From positions 1-20,241 of IMG/VR virus record IMGVR_UViG_3300032046_000270: DNA of 20,241 nt; one strand, 5' to 3'. Each line of letters starts with the position of its first letter. Within the stretch, counting starts at the first letter, position 1. The position numbers were made by a program, and so were the translations under genes. The stretch comes from a virus. The notes beneath the pieces were generated by a model that made no database searches, was not told the origin of the DNA, and saw only the letters and a program-made list of their open reading frames with translations. This document shows, in pieces, positions 417 to 19,243 of the stretch.

Positions 417-1277
417 ATGCAATTTTTTAAAATGGAAAGTTCCTTTTTTGATGACACAAAAATAACCCGCATTCTGGAGGACAAAAAAAACGGATATCGG
501 CTAATAGTTTTTTGGTTTTTTCTTCTAGGATCTATCGCAGAACACATAAAAAACGACGCGTCAATTGTAAGCGTACCGCTAAGTCAGTTGGAACGCAGTC
601 GTATATTCATTTCCAAATCAAAGATGATTCAAATGCTAAACAAGTTGTCAACCATATTCGATTTCAAATGCGAATCAGTTGGAAATCAAATACACATAAA
701 TTACCCTAAGTTCTTGAAAATACACGAGAGGTATTTGACGAAAACCCTCCGAGAATCTTCCGAGAAACCTCCCACCCCCGGACAATTCTCGGAAGATTCT
801 CGGAGCTCGGATGTAAATACAATCCTAAATCCTAAATCCCAAATCCTAAATATAAAGGTGTGTGATATTATAACGCAACCTTCGGTTGCTGAAACAACAC
901 GCCACACAAAAAAACCCGCATCAAGAAATTGGCTTTTAAGGATTTGGAACGCTTACCGAGGCACATTACCAGAAGCAAAAAGCCTGGGTATATTCGAAGA
1001 GGACAAAACAAATCGTTTATGGTCCGAGGTTCCTGACGAAAAATATTGGGAAGATATTATAAAAAAGATTGTCAAAGATCCATATTGCAATGGACAAAAT
1101 AAAGAAAAGTGGATTGCAAGCTTTTCTTATCTGCTGAAGGAAGGAACGCATAATAAAATTGCAAATGGGTTATACGATAGAATAGAACCGCGCAGTTCAA
1201 ATGAATTTAGCAAAGACGAAATGATTAAGCTTCAAAAAGAAGCGCGGGAACGACGCGAGAAAGAATTATTTTCCTAA
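417..1277 (+). CDS. Replisome-organizer-like phage replication initiator
   Basis: This 286-residue protein has the layout of phage replisome organizers. An N-terminal winged-helix-type domain (about residues 1-105) begins FFDDTKITRIL followed by an aromatic/hydrophobic FWFFLLGSIAEH stretch, typical of the Phage_rep_org_N family. A low-complexity linker (about 108-165) follows, then a C-terminal region (170-255) with KWIASFSYLLKEGTHNKIANGLY, which resembles the W-x3-F-x-WLL-K-x-N-x2-K-x2-G-x-Y end of many phage replication proteins. Such proteins bind iterons in their own gene and recruit helicase or its loader. The linker DNA holds exactly such repeats (747-848). The start is the ATG after a G6 run that serves as an unusual Shine-Dalgarno. 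The basic, charged C-terminus ends in KELFS. Family assignment is by pattern, not by search. Confidence 0.75.
   Translation: MQFFKMESSFFDDTKITRILEDKKNGYRLIVFWFFLLGSIAEHIKNDASIVSVPLSQLERSRIFISKSKMIQMLNKLSTIFDFKCESVGNQIHINYPKFLKIHERYLTKTLRESSEKPPTPGQFSEDSRSSDVNTILNPKSQILNIKVCDIITQPSVAETTRHTKKPASRNWLLRIWNAYRGTLPEAKSLGIFEEDKTNRLWSEVPDEKYWEDIIKKIVKDPYCNGQNKEKWIASFSYLLKEGTHNKIANGLYDRIEPRSSNEFSKDEMIKLQKEARERREKELFS
747..805. repeat. Inverted iteron array inside the initiator gene (likely ori)
   Basis: A perfect 20-bp inverted repeat has arms at 747-766 and 786-805 and a 19-base C-rich spacer. Each arm contains two copies of one 8-mer three bases apart: TCCGAGAA twice on the left, TTCTCGGA twice on the right. 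This makes four sites with two in each orientation, an 11-bp helical period within each arm. It falls in the codons for the low-complexity linker (residues 111-130), so the protein tolerates it. As in lambda O and several Gram-positive phage replisome organizers, the initiator probably binds here. The binding itself is inferred. Confidence 0.8.
821..848. repeat. Four tandem AT-rich 7-mers, likely DNA-unwinding element
   Basis: AATCCTA (821-827), AATCCTA (828-834), AATCCCA (835-841) and AATCCTA (842-848) run head to tail, followed by a degenerate AATATAA. The period of seven is out of phase with the codons, so the repeat is maintained at DNA level and not as a protein repeat. It starts 15 bases after the iteron array, the usual arrangement of a replication origin with an adjacent melting region. 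Confidence 0.7.
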
Positions 1278-2724: not shown

Positions 2725-2991
2725 TCAGTCTACCAGAAAAATATCCTTTCCGGCATATATTTTTTTATCTTTGTTTTTTTCAATCTGCATCAAACACGTT
2801 TTGATTATCGATAATGAAGTTCTGCCGCAAAATAACCACCAGTCATAAAGCGTTTTCCCCATCAGATTATTTTTAATCAGGAAATCATAAATTTCCGGCG
2901 CCCTGGCGCACTCGGAAATGTGATACATCAAAACGGACATATCGAAACCGTCCATGATCTTTAAAATCTTTTCCCTAACCTCTTGTGTCAT
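2725..2991 (-). CDS. Hypothetical late protein
   Basis: Starting at ATG 2991, the product has 88 residues (MTQEVREKILKIMDGFDMSV at the start) and ends in KKIYAGKDIFLVD. GGTGA lies six bases before this ATG. An in-frame ATG at 3003 has no ribosome site, and a TTG at 3030 seems unlikely. The protein is a predicted soluble helical protein with cysteines at about 22, 50 and 61. It overlaps the end of the O-antigen polymerase-like gene by 17 bases, so the two are probably co-translated. I do not recognise the family. Its position between that gene and the small membrane proteins does not settle whether it acts in conversion or lysis. Confidence 0.6.
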   Translation of the reverse strand: MTQEVREKILKIMDGFDMSVLMYHISECARAPEIYDFLIKNNLMGKTLYDWWLFCGRTSLSIIKTCLMQIEKNKDKKIYAGKDIFLVD

Positions 2992-4093
2992 AAATTTCAC
3001 CATTGTTTTTTGTTCGCAGCGCGCCAACAACTAAATACATCCCCAAAATGCTTAAATTGAAATATCGAAGCGGATTATACAACAAACAAAGCAAAAGGAA
3101 CGACAAAAACGCGGCGCTCTGCCACCTTTCCGATCTCAAACGTGTCCATATACCCCAAATCGCCAGAATCGCCATTAAAAGACCCACAAGCCCAAACTCA
3201 AAAAATATCTGTAAGAATTCATTGTGCGTGTTGACAAAATATCCATATTCTCGCATGGCCACTAGCGTTAATTGAATGTGTGGACCGAAAAGATAAAATG
3301 AACCAGGCCCGAACCCAAATAGCATTTTGTAGTTGTCCGCATTATGCAAAAACCATTTTGTGATTATCTGCCACCATTCGAATCTTCCGGTACTATGAAA
3401 TAATTCCGGGCCTAAATGCAGAATACCCCACTGCCAGGAAATTGAAACAATCAGCGCCGGAATCGCATATTTATATTTCCCTTTTATCGATAAGAAAACA
3501 TACAACGAAAGCATTAAAACAAAACAGCCCAAAACCACACTCGCTTGATTTTTCAATATCGCAATTGTTGGAATAATTAACGTTAATGCATCAATAAAAA
3601 AAAGCTTTTTCGAATATCCATTTTCCATAAATCGAACTGGTGCAAAATTAATCCGCGAAAACATGATCGCAATAAATGACCCATCAAGTGCATAATTTTG
3701 CATTATTCCGTTTTGCTGAAATAATAAAATGCAAGCATCTGCAAAGGCAAGCCAACAAAGCGCCTTATCGAATATTTTAAAAAAGAAATCTTTGAAATAT
3801 AGAATCAATAAAAATCCAGAAAAATATAAAAGCGCTTCTAAGTTGATCGCATTGAAAGAAAGAGCCGCAAGATTGCCATATTTCAAATATTGCGATTCAG
3901 GATAAAAACAAAAAAAGATAGATTGTAATAAAAAATAAAAACAGGGCAATAATAGTTTCCATTCGAATCGCTCTTTGAATTTCATTAGAATAAAAAACGA
4001 TAAGAAAATAGTTCCACAAAATAATTGTGCCCGGACATAATCTTTAAAAAAAATGGACGCCACAAAGCATATTATAAAAACTATTTTTTGCAT
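2975..4093 (-). CDS. O-antigen polymerase/ligase-like membrane protein (Wzy/WaaL superfamily)
   Basis: The 372-residue product is highly hydrophobic, with about ten predicted membrane helices. A large loop near residues 230-300 carries GRFEWW, GFGPGSF and THNEFLQ followed by EFGLVGL. These are hallmarks of the Wzy_C/O-antigen ligase family, which polymerises or transfers lipid-linked O units at the periplasmic face of the inner membrane. I chose ATG 4093 because it overlaps the previous stop as TAATG; an upstream TTG at 4144 would add 17 polar residues. The gene sits directly after the fibre genes and before putative lysis genes. In phages such as Pseudomonas D3 a Wzy homologue changes the host O-antigen and blocks superinfection, so lysogenic conversion is a reasonable inference. 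Polymerase and ligase cannot be told apart by eye. Confidence 0.75.
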   Translation of the reverse strand: MQKIVFIICFVASIFFKDYVRAQLFCGTIFLSFFILMKFKERFEWKLLLPCFYFLLQSIFFCFYPESQYLKYGNLAALSFNAINLEALLYFSGFLLILYFKDFFFKIFDKALCWLAFADACILLFQQNGIMQNYALDGSFIAIMFSRINFAPVRFMENGYSKKLFFIDALTLIIPTIAILKNQASVVLGCFVLMLSLYVFLSIKGKYKYAIPALIVSISWQWGILHLGPELFHSTGRFEWWQIITKWFLHNADNYKMLFGFGPGSFYLFGPHIQLTLVAMREYGYFVNTHNEFLQIFFEFGLVGLLMAILAIWGIWTRLRSERWQSAAFLSFLLLCLLYNPLRYFNLSILGMYLVVGALRTKNNGEIYDTRG

Positions 4094-4452
4094 TAACTTG
4101 GCTTGGGAAATTGTGCTTTCACTGCTGCTATTCTGATCTTCCAAGCATCCTGGTCATGATATATTTCATCAAGCTGGTTGCCCCAATCGCCATAGGCAAG
4201 TCGTCTATTTTGATAACAAAGATCCAATGCTGTTGATGTCGCAATTGTATCAATCATATCTTGATCAATTAAAAAATTCCCATTGATTTTTTTCAATCCT
4301 TTATAATTATCAAGATATTCCTGCGGAAGCGAACCATCGATTTTTTCATCCCATAAAACAGTTATCTCTTCCGAAACCCCACCGGTATGATAATCGACCT
4401 CAACAAGCTTATTTTTTCCATTATGAATGAAAATTATTTTTCTTGATACCAT
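4093..4452 (-). CDS. Tail-fibre-associated small protein
   Basis: The 119-residue product starts at an ATG with AAGGAG 7-8 bases upstream, 10 bases after the fibre gene ends. The C-terminal part, YGDWGNQLDEIYHDQDAWK (87-105) and then IAAVKAQFPKP, is the widespread 'Y-x3-xQLDxIYHDxDAWKxxIxxVKxxxPKP' end found in phage proteins next to tail fibres. The N-terminal part (1-80) may be a small beta domain. Such proteins are usually annotated as fibre-associated or fibre-assembly proteins, without a proven reaction. Its stop overlaps the next start (TAATG), which couples it to the O-antigen polymerase-like gene. Confidence 0.7.
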   Translation of the reverse strand: MVSRKIIFIHNGKNKLVEVDYHTGGVSEEITVLWDEKIDGSLPQEYLDNYKGLKKINGNFLIDQDMIDTIATSTALDLCYQNRRLAYGDWGNQLDEIYHDQDAWKIRIAAVKAQFPKPS

Positions 4453-15250: not shown

Positions 15251-16186
15251 TTACGCGATACAATCCTTGATAAGATAACCAGCATTTACGTTTGTAAGGA
15301 ACTGGTCATAATCATCTTCGCAAAGAATCGCATTCGCCCCTGCCGGGTTGTAAACCGGATATTTGTAGATTTTTCTTGGCATATCTTGCGCATAGCGTAC
15401 TTGATACCCAAGGGAAGTTTGATACAAGCTTGCTTTTTCTGGTATGAAAGCAAGAATCAAATTCTTGCCCCAAATCGGAGCGATAACGTCAGCGTGGCCT
15501 TCAACACTGGAATTATAAAAACTCTGTGCAACAAGAATTCTCTTGACGCCGATTGCAAGAGCTAATTCCTGGTCGGTCATCCCGCCAACACGATTATATT
15601 TATAACCGAGTGAATCGAGAATCTGCGGATGATAGCGCAGCATATTCCATACATCCCAATCCATGATTGCAGTATTCGGAGGGAAGCCGCAACCATCCCT
15701 GACGCCTTTTCTTGCTGTAGTGAAATCATCCAAAGGAATTGAATTCGATTTATCCGACCACTGATTAGTTCCGGAAAGCGTTGTGTTCTGTGTCATTACG
15801 CCCGTGCTTCCAAGTGTATCGGCAAGCGTCTTTTCTTTTTCAACCCAAAGAGCCAGCGCTAGAGCCATAACTCTGTCGCGTTCAGCATCAAATGGGGTAT
15901 TGGTGTTTTTATAATCTTCCTTGGTCACGATATCCTCAAGCCCATGGCCGATAATCTGATACTGGCTGGTCGTGTAGGAAGTCGTTTCAACTCTCTTATA
16001 AGAACCTCTCCCGGCCTTGAGAGTATTGACCATTCTCAAATACCCTTTTCCCATAACTCCGAGAACGCCGGTCTGTTGTACGCTTGGTACTACCGGAAGG
16101 ACTTCATCAGAAATGAAACCTTCGGGAATAAATGCCGAAGAAACGGTTGTTAATAGTTGATCCTGAATTGCTTTTAAAAGTGACAT
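15251..16186 (-). CDS. Major capsid protein (HK97-fold type)
   Basis: The 311-residue product follows the cement protein gene, with TAGGAG 9-10 bases before its ATG. It carries hallmarks of Mu/B3-like capsid proteins: an N-terminal arm region ('FISDEVLPVVPSVQQTGVLG'), 'ETTSYTTSQYQIIGHGLEDI', a long helix 'DAERDRVMALALALWVEKEK', 'SIPLDDFTTARKGVRDGCGF' with PPNTAIMDWDVWNMLRYHP, and a C-terminal strand with YQVRYAQD. It is probably processed or used together with the protease gene at 16658. A long series of head genes follows in the same direction, and a hairpin lies directly downstream. Confidence 0.9.
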   Translation of the reverse strand: MSLLKAIQDQLLTTVSSAFIPEGFISDEVLPVVPSVQQTGVLGVMGKGYLRMVNTLKAGRGSYKRVETTSYTTSQYQIIGHGLEDIVTKEDYKNTNTPFDAERDRVMALALALWVEKEKTLADTLGSTGVMTQNTTLSGTNQWSDKSNSIPLDDFTTARKGVRDGCGFPPNTAIMDWDVWNMLRYHPQILDSLGYKYNRVGGMTDQELALAIGVKRILVAQSFYNSSVEGHADVIAPIWGKNLILAFIPEKASLYQTSLGYQVRYAQDMPRKIYKYPVYNPAGANAILCEDDYDQFLTNVNAGYLIKDCIA

Positions 16187-16249
16187 TGCACATGCTCCTA
16201 TTTTAATAAGCTCAAGGAAGGCTTTTGGCCACCCTGACGCCTAGTTTGT

Positions 16250-16633
16250 TTACTCGGCCGCCGGGGCCTTGCTTAATGCTATTCTTCCACTGATAAGATC
16301 GCCAACTACGCCGCTTTCGTCAGCTATTCCAACGATCCTATCGCCCAAAGCATTCGGCTTTACAAAGGTTCCGTCAGTATGAGAAACGAGACTATCGCCA
16401 GCCGTTATTTGTTCGCCCAAAAGGAATTTTGCGCCGCCACCAACAGCTATTTCACAAAGCTGTTCGGCCGCAGTCGTAGCCGCTGATTGCATAACTCCAA
16501 AACATGGATTTGTATTTGCGGCACCCGCTGCCACATGATTATTGTCTGATCCTGGTTTCACTGCTGCGCCCTTTGCAATGACACCGTCACTTTTGAAAAC
16601 TGATATACTCGGTGCTACTAGTAAAGCTCCCAT
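16250..16633 (-). CDS. Capsid cement/decoration protein
   Basis: This 127-residue Ala/Gly-rich protein lies between the protease/scaffold and the capsid genes, with AAAGGAA upstream of ATG 16633. The sequence (KSDGVIAKGAAVKPG, then 'CFGVMQSAATTAAEQLCEIA', 'GGGAKFLLGEQITAGDSLVS', 'GDRIVGIADESGVVGDLISG') follows the repeating small-beta pattern of DUF2190-type and similar phage head-decoration proteins: 'v..G..V......................G.....ia.G..v.v.....i..Gd.L'. It would bind the outer face of the capsid at three-fold or quasi-three-fold points and strengthen it. Assignment is by pattern and position. Confidence 0.75.
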   Translation of the reverse strand: MGALLVAPSISVFKSDGVIAKGAAVKPGSDNNHVAAGAANTNPCFGVMQSAATTAAEQLCEIAVGGGAKFLLGEQITAGDSLVSHTDGTFVKPNALGDRIVGIADESGVVGDLISGRIALSKAPAAE

Positions 16634-16657
16634 TTTATTTTTCCTTTCGTTTAAAAA

Positions 16658-17281
16658 TTATTTTTCTACAAAAATTGCTTCATATTTCTGTCGAAGTCCT
16701 GCATTCTCTGAAAGAACCAAACTGATTGCGATTCCCATATCCTTGGCTTTCTTATCGATTATTTTCTTTTCAGCCAATGCAATAACTGCCTTCTGCGGAT
16801 CGTCTTCAATGGTTCCGTCAACAGTACTTCCATGCCCGGAATTGGTTTTCATTGCCAGTTCTGCAAATTTCACCATATCTCCCGATTCGAATGAATTTCT
16901 CTGTGCTTCGCAAACTCTGCCTTCGGAAAGCATTTTATTGAATGAGTCTTTCTTCTCGGCAAGTTTCTTTTTCTCTGCTTCGGCTTCTGATTTCTTCTTT
17001 TCGGCTTCGGCTTCCATTTCGGCTTTCTTTTCGGCCTCTGCTTTTTTCTCTGCTTCGGCTTTCTTTTCGGATTCCGAAAGATCGCCTTTGTCCGCATCGT
17101 CATCTGTTTTTGTTTCTTTCCCGGTATCCTTGTCTTTATCAAAACCCATTTTCTTAGCCATTTCTGCTAATTTTTCTTTGAGTTCTGATTCAGACTTTTC
17201 GCCTTCCATAATTTTGGATTCCAAAGCTTCAAGCTTGGCTTCCATGTCCTGAATTTGTTTCACAAGTTCCTTGTCTGCCAT
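16658..17281 (-). CDS. Possible internally started scaffold protein (nested in the protease gene)
   Basis: ATG 17281 is in the same frame as the protease (Met255), and AAGGGA lies 8 bases upstream. The 207-residue product (MADKELVKQIQDMEAKLEAL onward) would be the coiled-coil scaffold without the protease, matching gene Z nested in I of phage Mu and the C/Nu3 pair of lambda. That a shorter product is made is inferred from analogy and the ribosome site. Confidence 0.45.
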   Translation of the reverse strand: MADKELVKQIQDMEAKLEALESKIMEGEKSESELKEKLAEMAKKMGFDKDKDTGKETKTDDDADKGDLSESEKKAEAEKKAEAEKKAEMEAEAEKKKSEAEAEKKKLAEKKDSFNKMLSEGRVCEAQRNSFESGDMVKFAELAMKTNSGHGSTVDGTIEDDPQKAVIALAEKKIIDKKAKDMGIAISLVLSENAGLRQKYEAIFVEK

Positions 17282-18043
17282 ATCAGCTTTCCCTTTCTCG
17301 GATTCTTTTTCCGTTCCTTTCAATTTTCCATATATAAGAGAAACGCCTTTCTCCGGTATCGATTTTGTCCTGAAAGAACCATCAACAAAAAGAGAAGGTT
17401 CTTTCTGGCGAAATCTATATGAAGTTGACGTTTCATCGACCTCAAATTTATCGGCTCCGACGGCCTTTGCGATTGACTTTGCCTGTTCTAATGATTTTGC
17501 TTTTTCTTTTGAAACTACGATTGTTTGCAGATTCTTTGCTACAAGTTGAATTTCGCTTTTCTCTGCTAATTCCGTTATTGAATTCATGCCCTTAATAACC
17601 GGTCTATTGGTTAATCCTGCGCCCAAAAGCGTCGGTCCATATTCAGTCCCGGTTTCATTATCGATAAAATTGGTATCGAAATCAGCGGAGAGATATCTGA
17701 ATTCTTTGTCTTTGATTACGCGCGACCCGTTTGGCGTCCACTCGACAGTTGCCCATAATTCTGTATCGTCTGTGCGAAGCTCAACGCCCTTAATCCAAGC
17801 GGCATATATGTCATCTGAATTGTGTTTATAATCTATCCCGATATCAATTTTTCGGACATGATCATTGAAGTTTTTAATGAAGGATCGGAGCATGTCGACA
17901 GTAATATCAAAATCGCCGTATTGGGGATGCGTGAAAGAACCAGTGCGGATAAGTTCAACTACGTTCGGGACATCCGATGCAAGAATCGGCTCCGAGAACC
18001 GCAAGGCCCTCGGAGCTGTTCTCATAATTTTATTTTCTATCAT
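16658..18043 (-). CDS. Phage head maturation protease and scaffold (Mu gpI-like)
   Basis: The N-terminal 160 residues match the Mu I-type protease: 'IGIDYKH' at 68-74 with the conserved D-Y-K-H (as DYEH in relatives), WATVEWTPNG (97-106), EFRYLSADF (114-122) and GAGLTNRPVI (141-150). An insert of uncertain nature follows (about 175-245). The C-terminal 207 residues are a Lys/Glu/Ala-rich coiled coil with 'EKKAEAEKK' repeats, as in scaffold domains. As in Mu I/Z, protease and scaffold are in one gene, and ATG 17281 with AAGGGA 8 bases upstream may give a separate scaffold. The promoter just upstream suggests it starts the head transcript. The MIENKIM start has only a weak ribosome site. Confidence 0.85.
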   Translation of the reverse strand: MIENKIMRTAPRALRFSEPILASDVPNVVELIRTGSFTHPQYGDFDITVDMLRSFIKNFNDHVRKIDIGIDYKHNSDDIYAAWIKGVELRTDDTELWATVEWTPNGSRVIKDKEFRYLSADFDTNFIDNETGTEYGPTLLGAGLTNRPVIKGMNSITELAEKSEIQLVAKNLQTIVVSKEKAKSLEQAKSIAKAVGADKFEVDETSTSYRFRQKEPSLFVDGSFRTKSIPEKGVSLIYGKLKGTEKESEKGKADMADKELVKQIQDMEAKLEALESKIMEGEKSESELKEKLAEMAKKMGFDKDKDTGKETKTDDDADKGDLSESEKKAEAEKKAEAEKKAEMEAEAEKKKSEAEAEKKKLAEKKDSFNKMLSEGRVCEAQRNSFESGDMVKFAELAMKTNSGHGSTVDGTIEDDPQKAVIALAEKKIIDKKAKDMGIAISLVLSENAGLRQKYEAIFVEK

Positions 18044-18853: not shown

Positions 18854-19243
18854 CTAAACTCCCCATGTTGCGCTTTCGAAATCTTCTGTAAGCAGTGTTG
18901 TAAACGCCGGAATCGTTGTATTCCAGGTACTACTTTCGAAATCTTCTGTTAACAGTGTTGTGAAAGAAGGAATCGCTGTATTCCAAGTGCTGCTTTCGAA
19001 ATCTTCCGTTAACAGTGTTGTGAACGCCGGAATCGTTGTATTCCATGAAACACTTTCAAAGTCTTCATAAATCAATTGAGTAATCGAATTTGCCAGATTT
19101 AATACTTCTGCCTCGCTATATTGAACAGTTTTTCCTTCGCTCGCCCAGATTATTTTCAATGCATTGCCAAGATTTGCATTCGAAGGAATCGCATAATGCG
19201 CCCTTACCGTTTCTATAATTTGCCCGGCAGTCTTTTGGCTCAT
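18854..19243 (-). CDS. Repeat protein with four EDFES-W motifs
   Basis: The 129-residue product has an N-terminal helical part (1-55, including QIIETVRAHYAIPS and LKIIWASEGK) and then a 20-residue repeat with EDFES at 60, 80, 100 and 120 and W at 67, 87, 107 and 127 (FESSTWNTTIPAFTTLLTED). EDFE...W is the usual first strand of jelly-roll and concanavalin-like domains, so the repeats look like multiplied domain openings without the domain. The gene ends at TAG 18856-18854 and the following gene continues in the same frame with the rest of such a domain. It overlaps its upstream neighbour by ATGA. Confidence 0.6.
   Translation of the reverse strand: MSQKTAGQIIETVRAHYAIPSNANLGNALKIIWASEGKTVQYSEAEVLNLANSITQLIYEDFESVSWNTTIPAFTTLLTEDFESSTWNTAIPSFTTLLTEDFESSTWNTTIPAFTTLLTEDFESATWGV
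18873..19070. repeat. 60-bp tandem repeats
   Basis: Three nearly identical 60-bp units start at 18873, 18933 and 18993 (each CTTTCGAAATCTTC or very close), with a partial, more diverged fourth at 19053. Similarity extends to silent positions, which points to recent tandem duplication. The period equals 20 codons, so copy number can change without breaking the frame. Confidence 0.85.

Follow-up and report, generated by a model that had tools for sequence, protein, structure and literature searches.

The virus record IMGVR_UViG_3300032046_000270 carries a cluster of short repeats inside a gene that resembles phage replication initiators, raising the question of whether this cluster is the replication origin of the phage. 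Two precedents frame the question: the ori of phage lambda, located in gene O, consists of four iterons and an AT-rich tract (PMC5043065, PMC7466680), and oriL of SPP1 lies within gene 38, the gene of the replisome organizer gp38 (PMC6316719). We analysed the whole record of 20,241 bases (referred to as the window), which is probably a fragment. The features on which the argument turns are as follows.

417-1277, plus strand: replication initiator / replisome-organizer gene, 286 aa, with PHROG and C-terminal HMM matches
aa 3-37 of the initiator: N-terminal Phage_rep_org_N-like part (weak PF09681 match)
about aa 107-175: linker of the initiator
aa 176-254: C-terminal domain of the helicase-recruitment type
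747-766, plus strand: left arm of the inverted repeat, CTCCGAGAATCTTCCGAGAA, with TCCGAGAA at 748-755 and 759-766; putative initiator-binding sites
767-785, no strand assigned: spacer between the arms, 19 nt, C-rich on the plus strand
786-805, minus strand: right arm, with TTCTCGGA at 786-793 and 797-804; the left-arm sites in opposite orientation
811-854, plus strand: G-free, strand-asymmetric stretch of 44 nt containing the heptamer array, read from the sequence
821-851, plus strand: AATCCTA heptamer array, 4.4 copies (TRF); candidate unwinding or single-strand segment, or generic dispersed repeat

The initiator gene

The ORF at 417-1277 matched PHROG initiator families (PHROG 345 with E=5.5e-8, PHROG 10469 with E=1.5e-7 over aa 1-262, and PHROG 19658 with E=4.3e-7), which bears out the original prediction that the gene is replisome-organizer-like. 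A Pfam search of the protein gave nothing above threshold, the match to the winged-helix DNA-binding domain PF09681 (Phage_rep_org_N) being weak (aa 3-37, E=0.012, a score of 16.0 bits where the cut-off is 23.3). An HMM of the C-terminal domain, built with the record's own protein left out, nevertheless detected the initiator with E=4.5e-8 at Z=10000, and the protein contains the C-terminal pattern W...A.F.WL.....N..K...G.Y that is common to phage initiators. Its C-terminal 80 residues could be aligned with initiators of Marinitoga, Pseudomonas, Stenotrophomonas, Roseburia, Ruminococcus, Leptolyngbya, Aeromonas and Bacteroides phages. Their initiator genes are mostly followed, directly or nearly directly, by a gene for a DnaB-type helicase or a loader; in the 20,241 bases of the window neither kind of gene could be recognised. 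A single-sequence AlphaFold model of the initiator, made without an alignment, reached a pLDDT of 40.6 and was unusable.

Elsewhere in the window, the head genes at 15251-18043 (minus strand) are Mu/B3-like (Mu-like prophage I protein, PF10123; major head protein, PHROG 1005), alongside an initiator of the lambda/SPP1 type. Between the replication and structural genes sits a minus-strand gene (2978-4144) with an O-antigen ligase/polymerase domain (Wzy_C, PF04932; E=1.1e-7, barely over the cut-off), possibly a surface-modifying accessory gene. At 273-321, 5′ of the initiator gene, a perfect 14-nt inverted repeat (AACCAGAATGTAAA/TTTACATTCTGGTT) with a 21-nt spacer is followed on the minus strand by a T-rich run, because of which it may be a terminator or operator.

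A perfect inverted repeat of 8-mers in the linker codons

The two arms at 747-766 and 786-805 are 20 nt each, 100% complementary and 19 nt apart, and each holds its 8-mer twice at a period of 11 bp (TCCGAGAA starting at 748 and 759, TTCTCGGA at 786 and 797). The coordinates and complementarity of the predicted 20-bp repeat of four 8-mers were thereby confirmed, and so was its location, together with the heptamer array, in the linker codons of the initiator (aa 111-145 of 286). Specifically, the inverted repeat corresponds to aa 111-130 and the array to aa 135-145, both preceding the C-terminal domain that begins at aa 176.

With spacers of up to 60 nt allowed, this 20-nt perfect inverted repeat is the longest of the record, compared with 9-13 nt in 20 first-order random sequences having the record's dinucleotide make-up. 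Synonymous-codon shuffles, which preserve both the protein and its codon use, gave a mean local repeat density of 5.7 against 24 in the actual gene, a value attained by 0 of 1000 shuffles. This localized statistic was the one used; an earlier shuffle statistic based on whole-gene repeat coverage discriminated less. Neither offset, 11 or 7, is divisible by 3, so that the encoded residues show no repetition; the repeat pattern is carried by the DNA, not by the protein. The inverted-repeat part is about 53% GC and thus not AT-rich, in a record of about 38% GC.

Scanning viral contigs for the exact arm yielded 0 matches, and scanning them for TTCTCGGANNNTTCTCGGA yielded 11, about the number expected by chance and none of them in an ORF that the C-terminal initiator HMM recognises. 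Separately, positions 397-415 of IMGVR_UViG_3300034378_000082 hold TTTCTCGGAAATTTCTCGGAAAC repeats with an 11-bp period; these are apparently intergenic, adjoin an ORF with a P-loop-like GSTGMGKS motif and are perhaps another origin. The GC skew of the window has no clear turning point at the repeat site, probably because changes of gene strand dominate the profile.

Repeats at the same place in distant relatives

Near relatives were sought in viral and genome contigs, using the whole protein, its separate domains and the capsid protein as queries; none was found, nor did a plasmid scan give any. We therefore turned to 17 distant relatives sharing the C-terminal domain, 11 of which carry phage-specific repeats beyond those of synonymous shuffles (at most 15 of 1000). 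These significant repeats occupy the same gene region as those of the record, 80-260 nt ahead of the C-terminal domain; the remaining 6 relatives had none by the localized shuffle statistic. As controls, 0 of 13 neighbouring helicase or loader genes showed localized repeats, and among 11 other genes of the record only one did (a 60-bp coding repeat). Such a repeat is seen at 18873-19066 (minus strand), where a gene has three 60-bp tandem repeats encoding a repeated 20-aa unit, TLLTEDFESSTWNTTIPAFT; its product is perhaps a virion or host-contact protein.

The Pseudomonas phages PP9W2, PseuP_224, TC7 and LESphi3 have related N-terminal domains and keep repeats of the CCCC(C/G)GCA type, although their linker residues differ. 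Since TC7 and LESphi3 retain these repeats despite C-terminal domains other than those of PP9W2 and PseuP_224, the repeats appear to go with the N-terminal domain. Judged from these sequence comparisons, such tracking of the N-terminal DNA-binding half is how initiator-binding sites should behave. The nearest named relatives by C-terminal domain are the initiators of Marinitoga camini virus 1 and 2 (27% identity, E=2e-4), which likewise have linker repeats, of the GAACCAGTTA type and some of them inverted. They differ from the record in the sequence of the repeat, in having no significant match outside the C-terminal domain, and in the phage DnaB-type helicase gene that follows their initiator.

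An 11-bp period with mixed orientation in other phage initiators

Initiators of a MARIRTIKPEFW type (those of SOVA965, Kp4865-4, Gsput1, prophiGD05-3 and Pitbull, and of at least about 65 viral contigs) resemble the record in having linker sites at an 11-bp period, in direct as well as inverted orientation, with a short-unit tandem array within a few nt. In SOVA965, Kp4865-4, Gsput1 and prophiGD05-3, for instance, 8-mers at 11 bp and an inverted copy are followed by a tandem array of 5-8-nt units. In contrast to the record, their arrays are purine runs (GGAAG, GGAGAA, GGAACAGG) instead of AATCCTA, and no relationship is detectable between the record's N-terminal domain and theirs (E=570).

The association was also examined blind to gene identity by seeking GGAAGGGAAGGGAAGGGAAGG, a GGAAG array, in viral contigs. 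Among the matches listed, which comprised 80 loci (more exist), 67 fell inside ORFs recognised by the N-terminal initiator HMM, in every case with the array on the coding strand. From these listed loci 64 distinct upstream regions of 120 nt were taken, in which direct repeats of exact 7-mers occurred at a distance of 11 in 43 regions, of 22 in 30 and of 33 in 16, compared with 0.38 per distance in shuffles; inverted copies were present in 44 of the 64. GGAAG arrays directly 3′ of 11-bp periodic sites in initiator genes look like a general origin signature.

The 11-bp period and mixed orientation of the record appear to fit this widespread design, with the inverted pairs of 8-mers falling within its normal range. 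The original prediction had presented the inverted layout as a departure, a point that does not hold, since phage initiators often have 11-bp periodic sites in mixed orientation.

Taken with the position of the 8-mers, their excess over synonymous shuffles and the occurrence of the same plan in many unrelated phages, the predicted origin within the initiator gene is supported: we assign a probability of about 0.82 to the reading, based on sequence, that a cis-acting phage replication origin is embedded in this gene, as in lambda O and SPP1 gene 38, with the 8-mers as putative initiator-binding sites.

The heptamer array and its possible role

The array opens 15 bases past the right arm, with AATCCTA at 821, 828 and 842, AATCCCA at 835 and then a degenerate AATATAA. 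The head-to-tail array of four 7-mers described earlier was therefore recovered where predicted, except that only three of the four are perfect, the one at 835 having C for T. TRF reported it at 821-851 with period 7, 4.4 copies, 91% matches and a score of 55, and no other period-7 array in the record exceeds 2.1 copies. The 7-base period runs out of codon phase within the reading frame, and 0 of 500 synonymous shuffles attained the array, in line with the earlier argument from its periodicity.

Support for its proposed role as a melting region is weak. The flank is moderately AT-rich (AT 0.70-0.72 at 810-870), and the 50 bp at 810-860 are less stable than about 94% of the record (about the 6th percentile of stability). 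Across relatives, an AT-rich flank was striking at first and weak once set against random placement: unstable DNA beside the repeats gave a modest p of about 0.005, the record on its own being unremarkable. The stretch at 810-860 may be an opening site or may be incidental.

Moreover, the AATCCTA unit is a common dispersed heptamer, and we put the chance at about even that the array is merely such a heptamer, landed or expanded in a tolerant linker, so that the 8-mers alone belong to the origin. Matches to AATCCTAAATCCCAAATCCTAA, as AATCCTA or AATCCCA arrays, number more than 100 across bacterial and archaeal genomes of many phyla, frequently with several in one genome, and 0 of 83 places checked were in initiator ORFs. 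In viral contigs AATCCTAAATCCTAAATCC was found at 22 loci, none within an ORF of at least 120 aa and none in an initiator, and heptameric repeats have been reported to be common in bacteria (PMC4692102). On the other hand, short-unit tandem arrays (4-8 nt) exceeding synonymous shuffles (at most 11 of 500) adjoin the repeats in 9 of 26 initiator genes, the record included, and in 0 of 21 control genes, suggesting that the site itself favours such arrays; the failure of any shuffle to attain the record's array likewise counts against a generic heptamer. As a separate observation, in a group of related virus contigs with otherwise very similar flanks, the copy number of an intergenic AATCCTA array varies from about 5 to 16, which makes it a variable-copy repeat.

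A broader proposal, which we advance tentatively and regard as somewhat less probable than not, is that many unrelated phages share one origin design: sites of 7-9 bp at an 11-bp period and in mixed orientation, with a strand-asymmetric array of 5-8-nt units, free in sequence, following immediately. The array, and not AT-richness as such, would then be the unwinding or single-strand loading element, and AATCCTA would be one solution next to GGAAG, GGAGAA, GGAACAGG and TAGTGA.

Other explanations for the inverted repeat

The 8-mers could instead be operators for a repressor or for autoregulation, or a partition or recombination site, and the inverted pairs typical of operators and the privacy of these repeats to this phage would both suit such a function. 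However, the repeats lie 330 nt into the gene, far from its start, and the significant clusters of the relatives sit in the initiator linker and track their own N-terminal domains, making this explanation unlikely.

Slightly less likely still is an RNA element, namely a 20-bp mRNA hairpin that pauses ribosomes or attenuates transcription within the gene. The predicted fold includes the full 20-bp stem at -44.8 kcal/mol (z -6.95), yet such a stem would not require an 11-bp repeat within its arms, and many of the relatives, with their direct and mixed-orientation 11-bp repeats, are without such a stem. Lambda iterons can also form hairpins and nonetheless act as O-binding sites (PMC7466680). An attenuator or terminator was set aside, given that no T-run follows the repeat, no terminator-like call was made at it and no Rfam match was found.

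That the repeat has no function, having arisen through template switching or a recent duplication in a linker under no constraint, is comparably improbable: although the arms are perfectly identical and no near relatives were found by which to gauge constraint, such an origin requires two independent events (an 11-bp duplication within an arm, then an inverted copy) and the 11-bp pattern recurs at the same place in unrelated phages.

A model for initiation and its likeness to lambda and SPP1

For an origin in the initiator gene, we infer a course of initiator binding, DNA opening and helicase loading, with a possible part for the heptamers. The N-terminal domain of the initiator would bind the four 8-mers, which would lie on one helix face within each arm owing to the 11-bp period and in opposite orientation between the arms. 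The half-site pairs would face each other across 19 nt, an arrangement compatible with two dimers or a loop; the bound initiator would probably be either a pair of dimers or a single looped, higher-order assembly. By binding, it would strain the DNA and open adjacent sequence that is AT-rich or strand-asymmetric; the closest candidate is the heptamer stretch at 811-870. The replicative helicase, either host DnaB or a phage one encoded beyond this fragment, would then be recruited by the C-terminal domain.

This layout resembles lambda in its four sites, placed centrally in the initiator gene and ahead of the part encoding the C-terminal domain, in the inverted symmetry of its sites and in the AT-richer, strand-asymmetric stretch 3′ of them. 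Lambda's iterons are each a 19-bp inverted repeat bound by O dimers (PMC7466680, PMC5043065), and a 40-bp AT-rich, strand-asymmetric tract follows them (PMC5043065, PMC7466680). To contrast the record's inverted pairs with direct iterons in lambda, as had been done, was consequently an overstatement. The actual differences are that lambda has four such inverted-repeat iterons where the record has 8-mers in two direct pairs (11 bp) set face to face, that the record's flank is a heptamer array and weaker in AT, and that PHROG 345 (replication initiation O-like) is the only link between its protein and O. With SPP1 oriL the record shares repeats and an AT-rich, candidate unwinding region within the gene of a replisome-organizer-type protein; unlike the record's, the SPP1 repeats are described as direct, and the record is without a recognised helicase or loader gene.

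Significance

Origins inside initiator genes being already known, this phage adds a probable new example; the possible novelty lies in how widely phages share the combination of 11-bp periodic sites and a short-unit tandem array. In the literature covered, mainly freely accessible, we found no description of a short-unit array beside the sites as a general origin part. From the comparison set an origin is likewise indicated for RepA-like actinophage initiators of the type found in prophiGD05-3. In cluster A RepA mycobacteriophages, whose RepA proteins may or may not belong to this family, the origin has been assumed to lie within or next to repA, and no repeated motifs were identified in the flank examined (PMC7157519). 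For the phage studied here, which has no near relatives, the analysis provides a concrete origin candidate, and it suggests that the origins of phages of unknown biology can be read from the initiator linker by combining synonymous-shuffle statistics with the 11-bp period.
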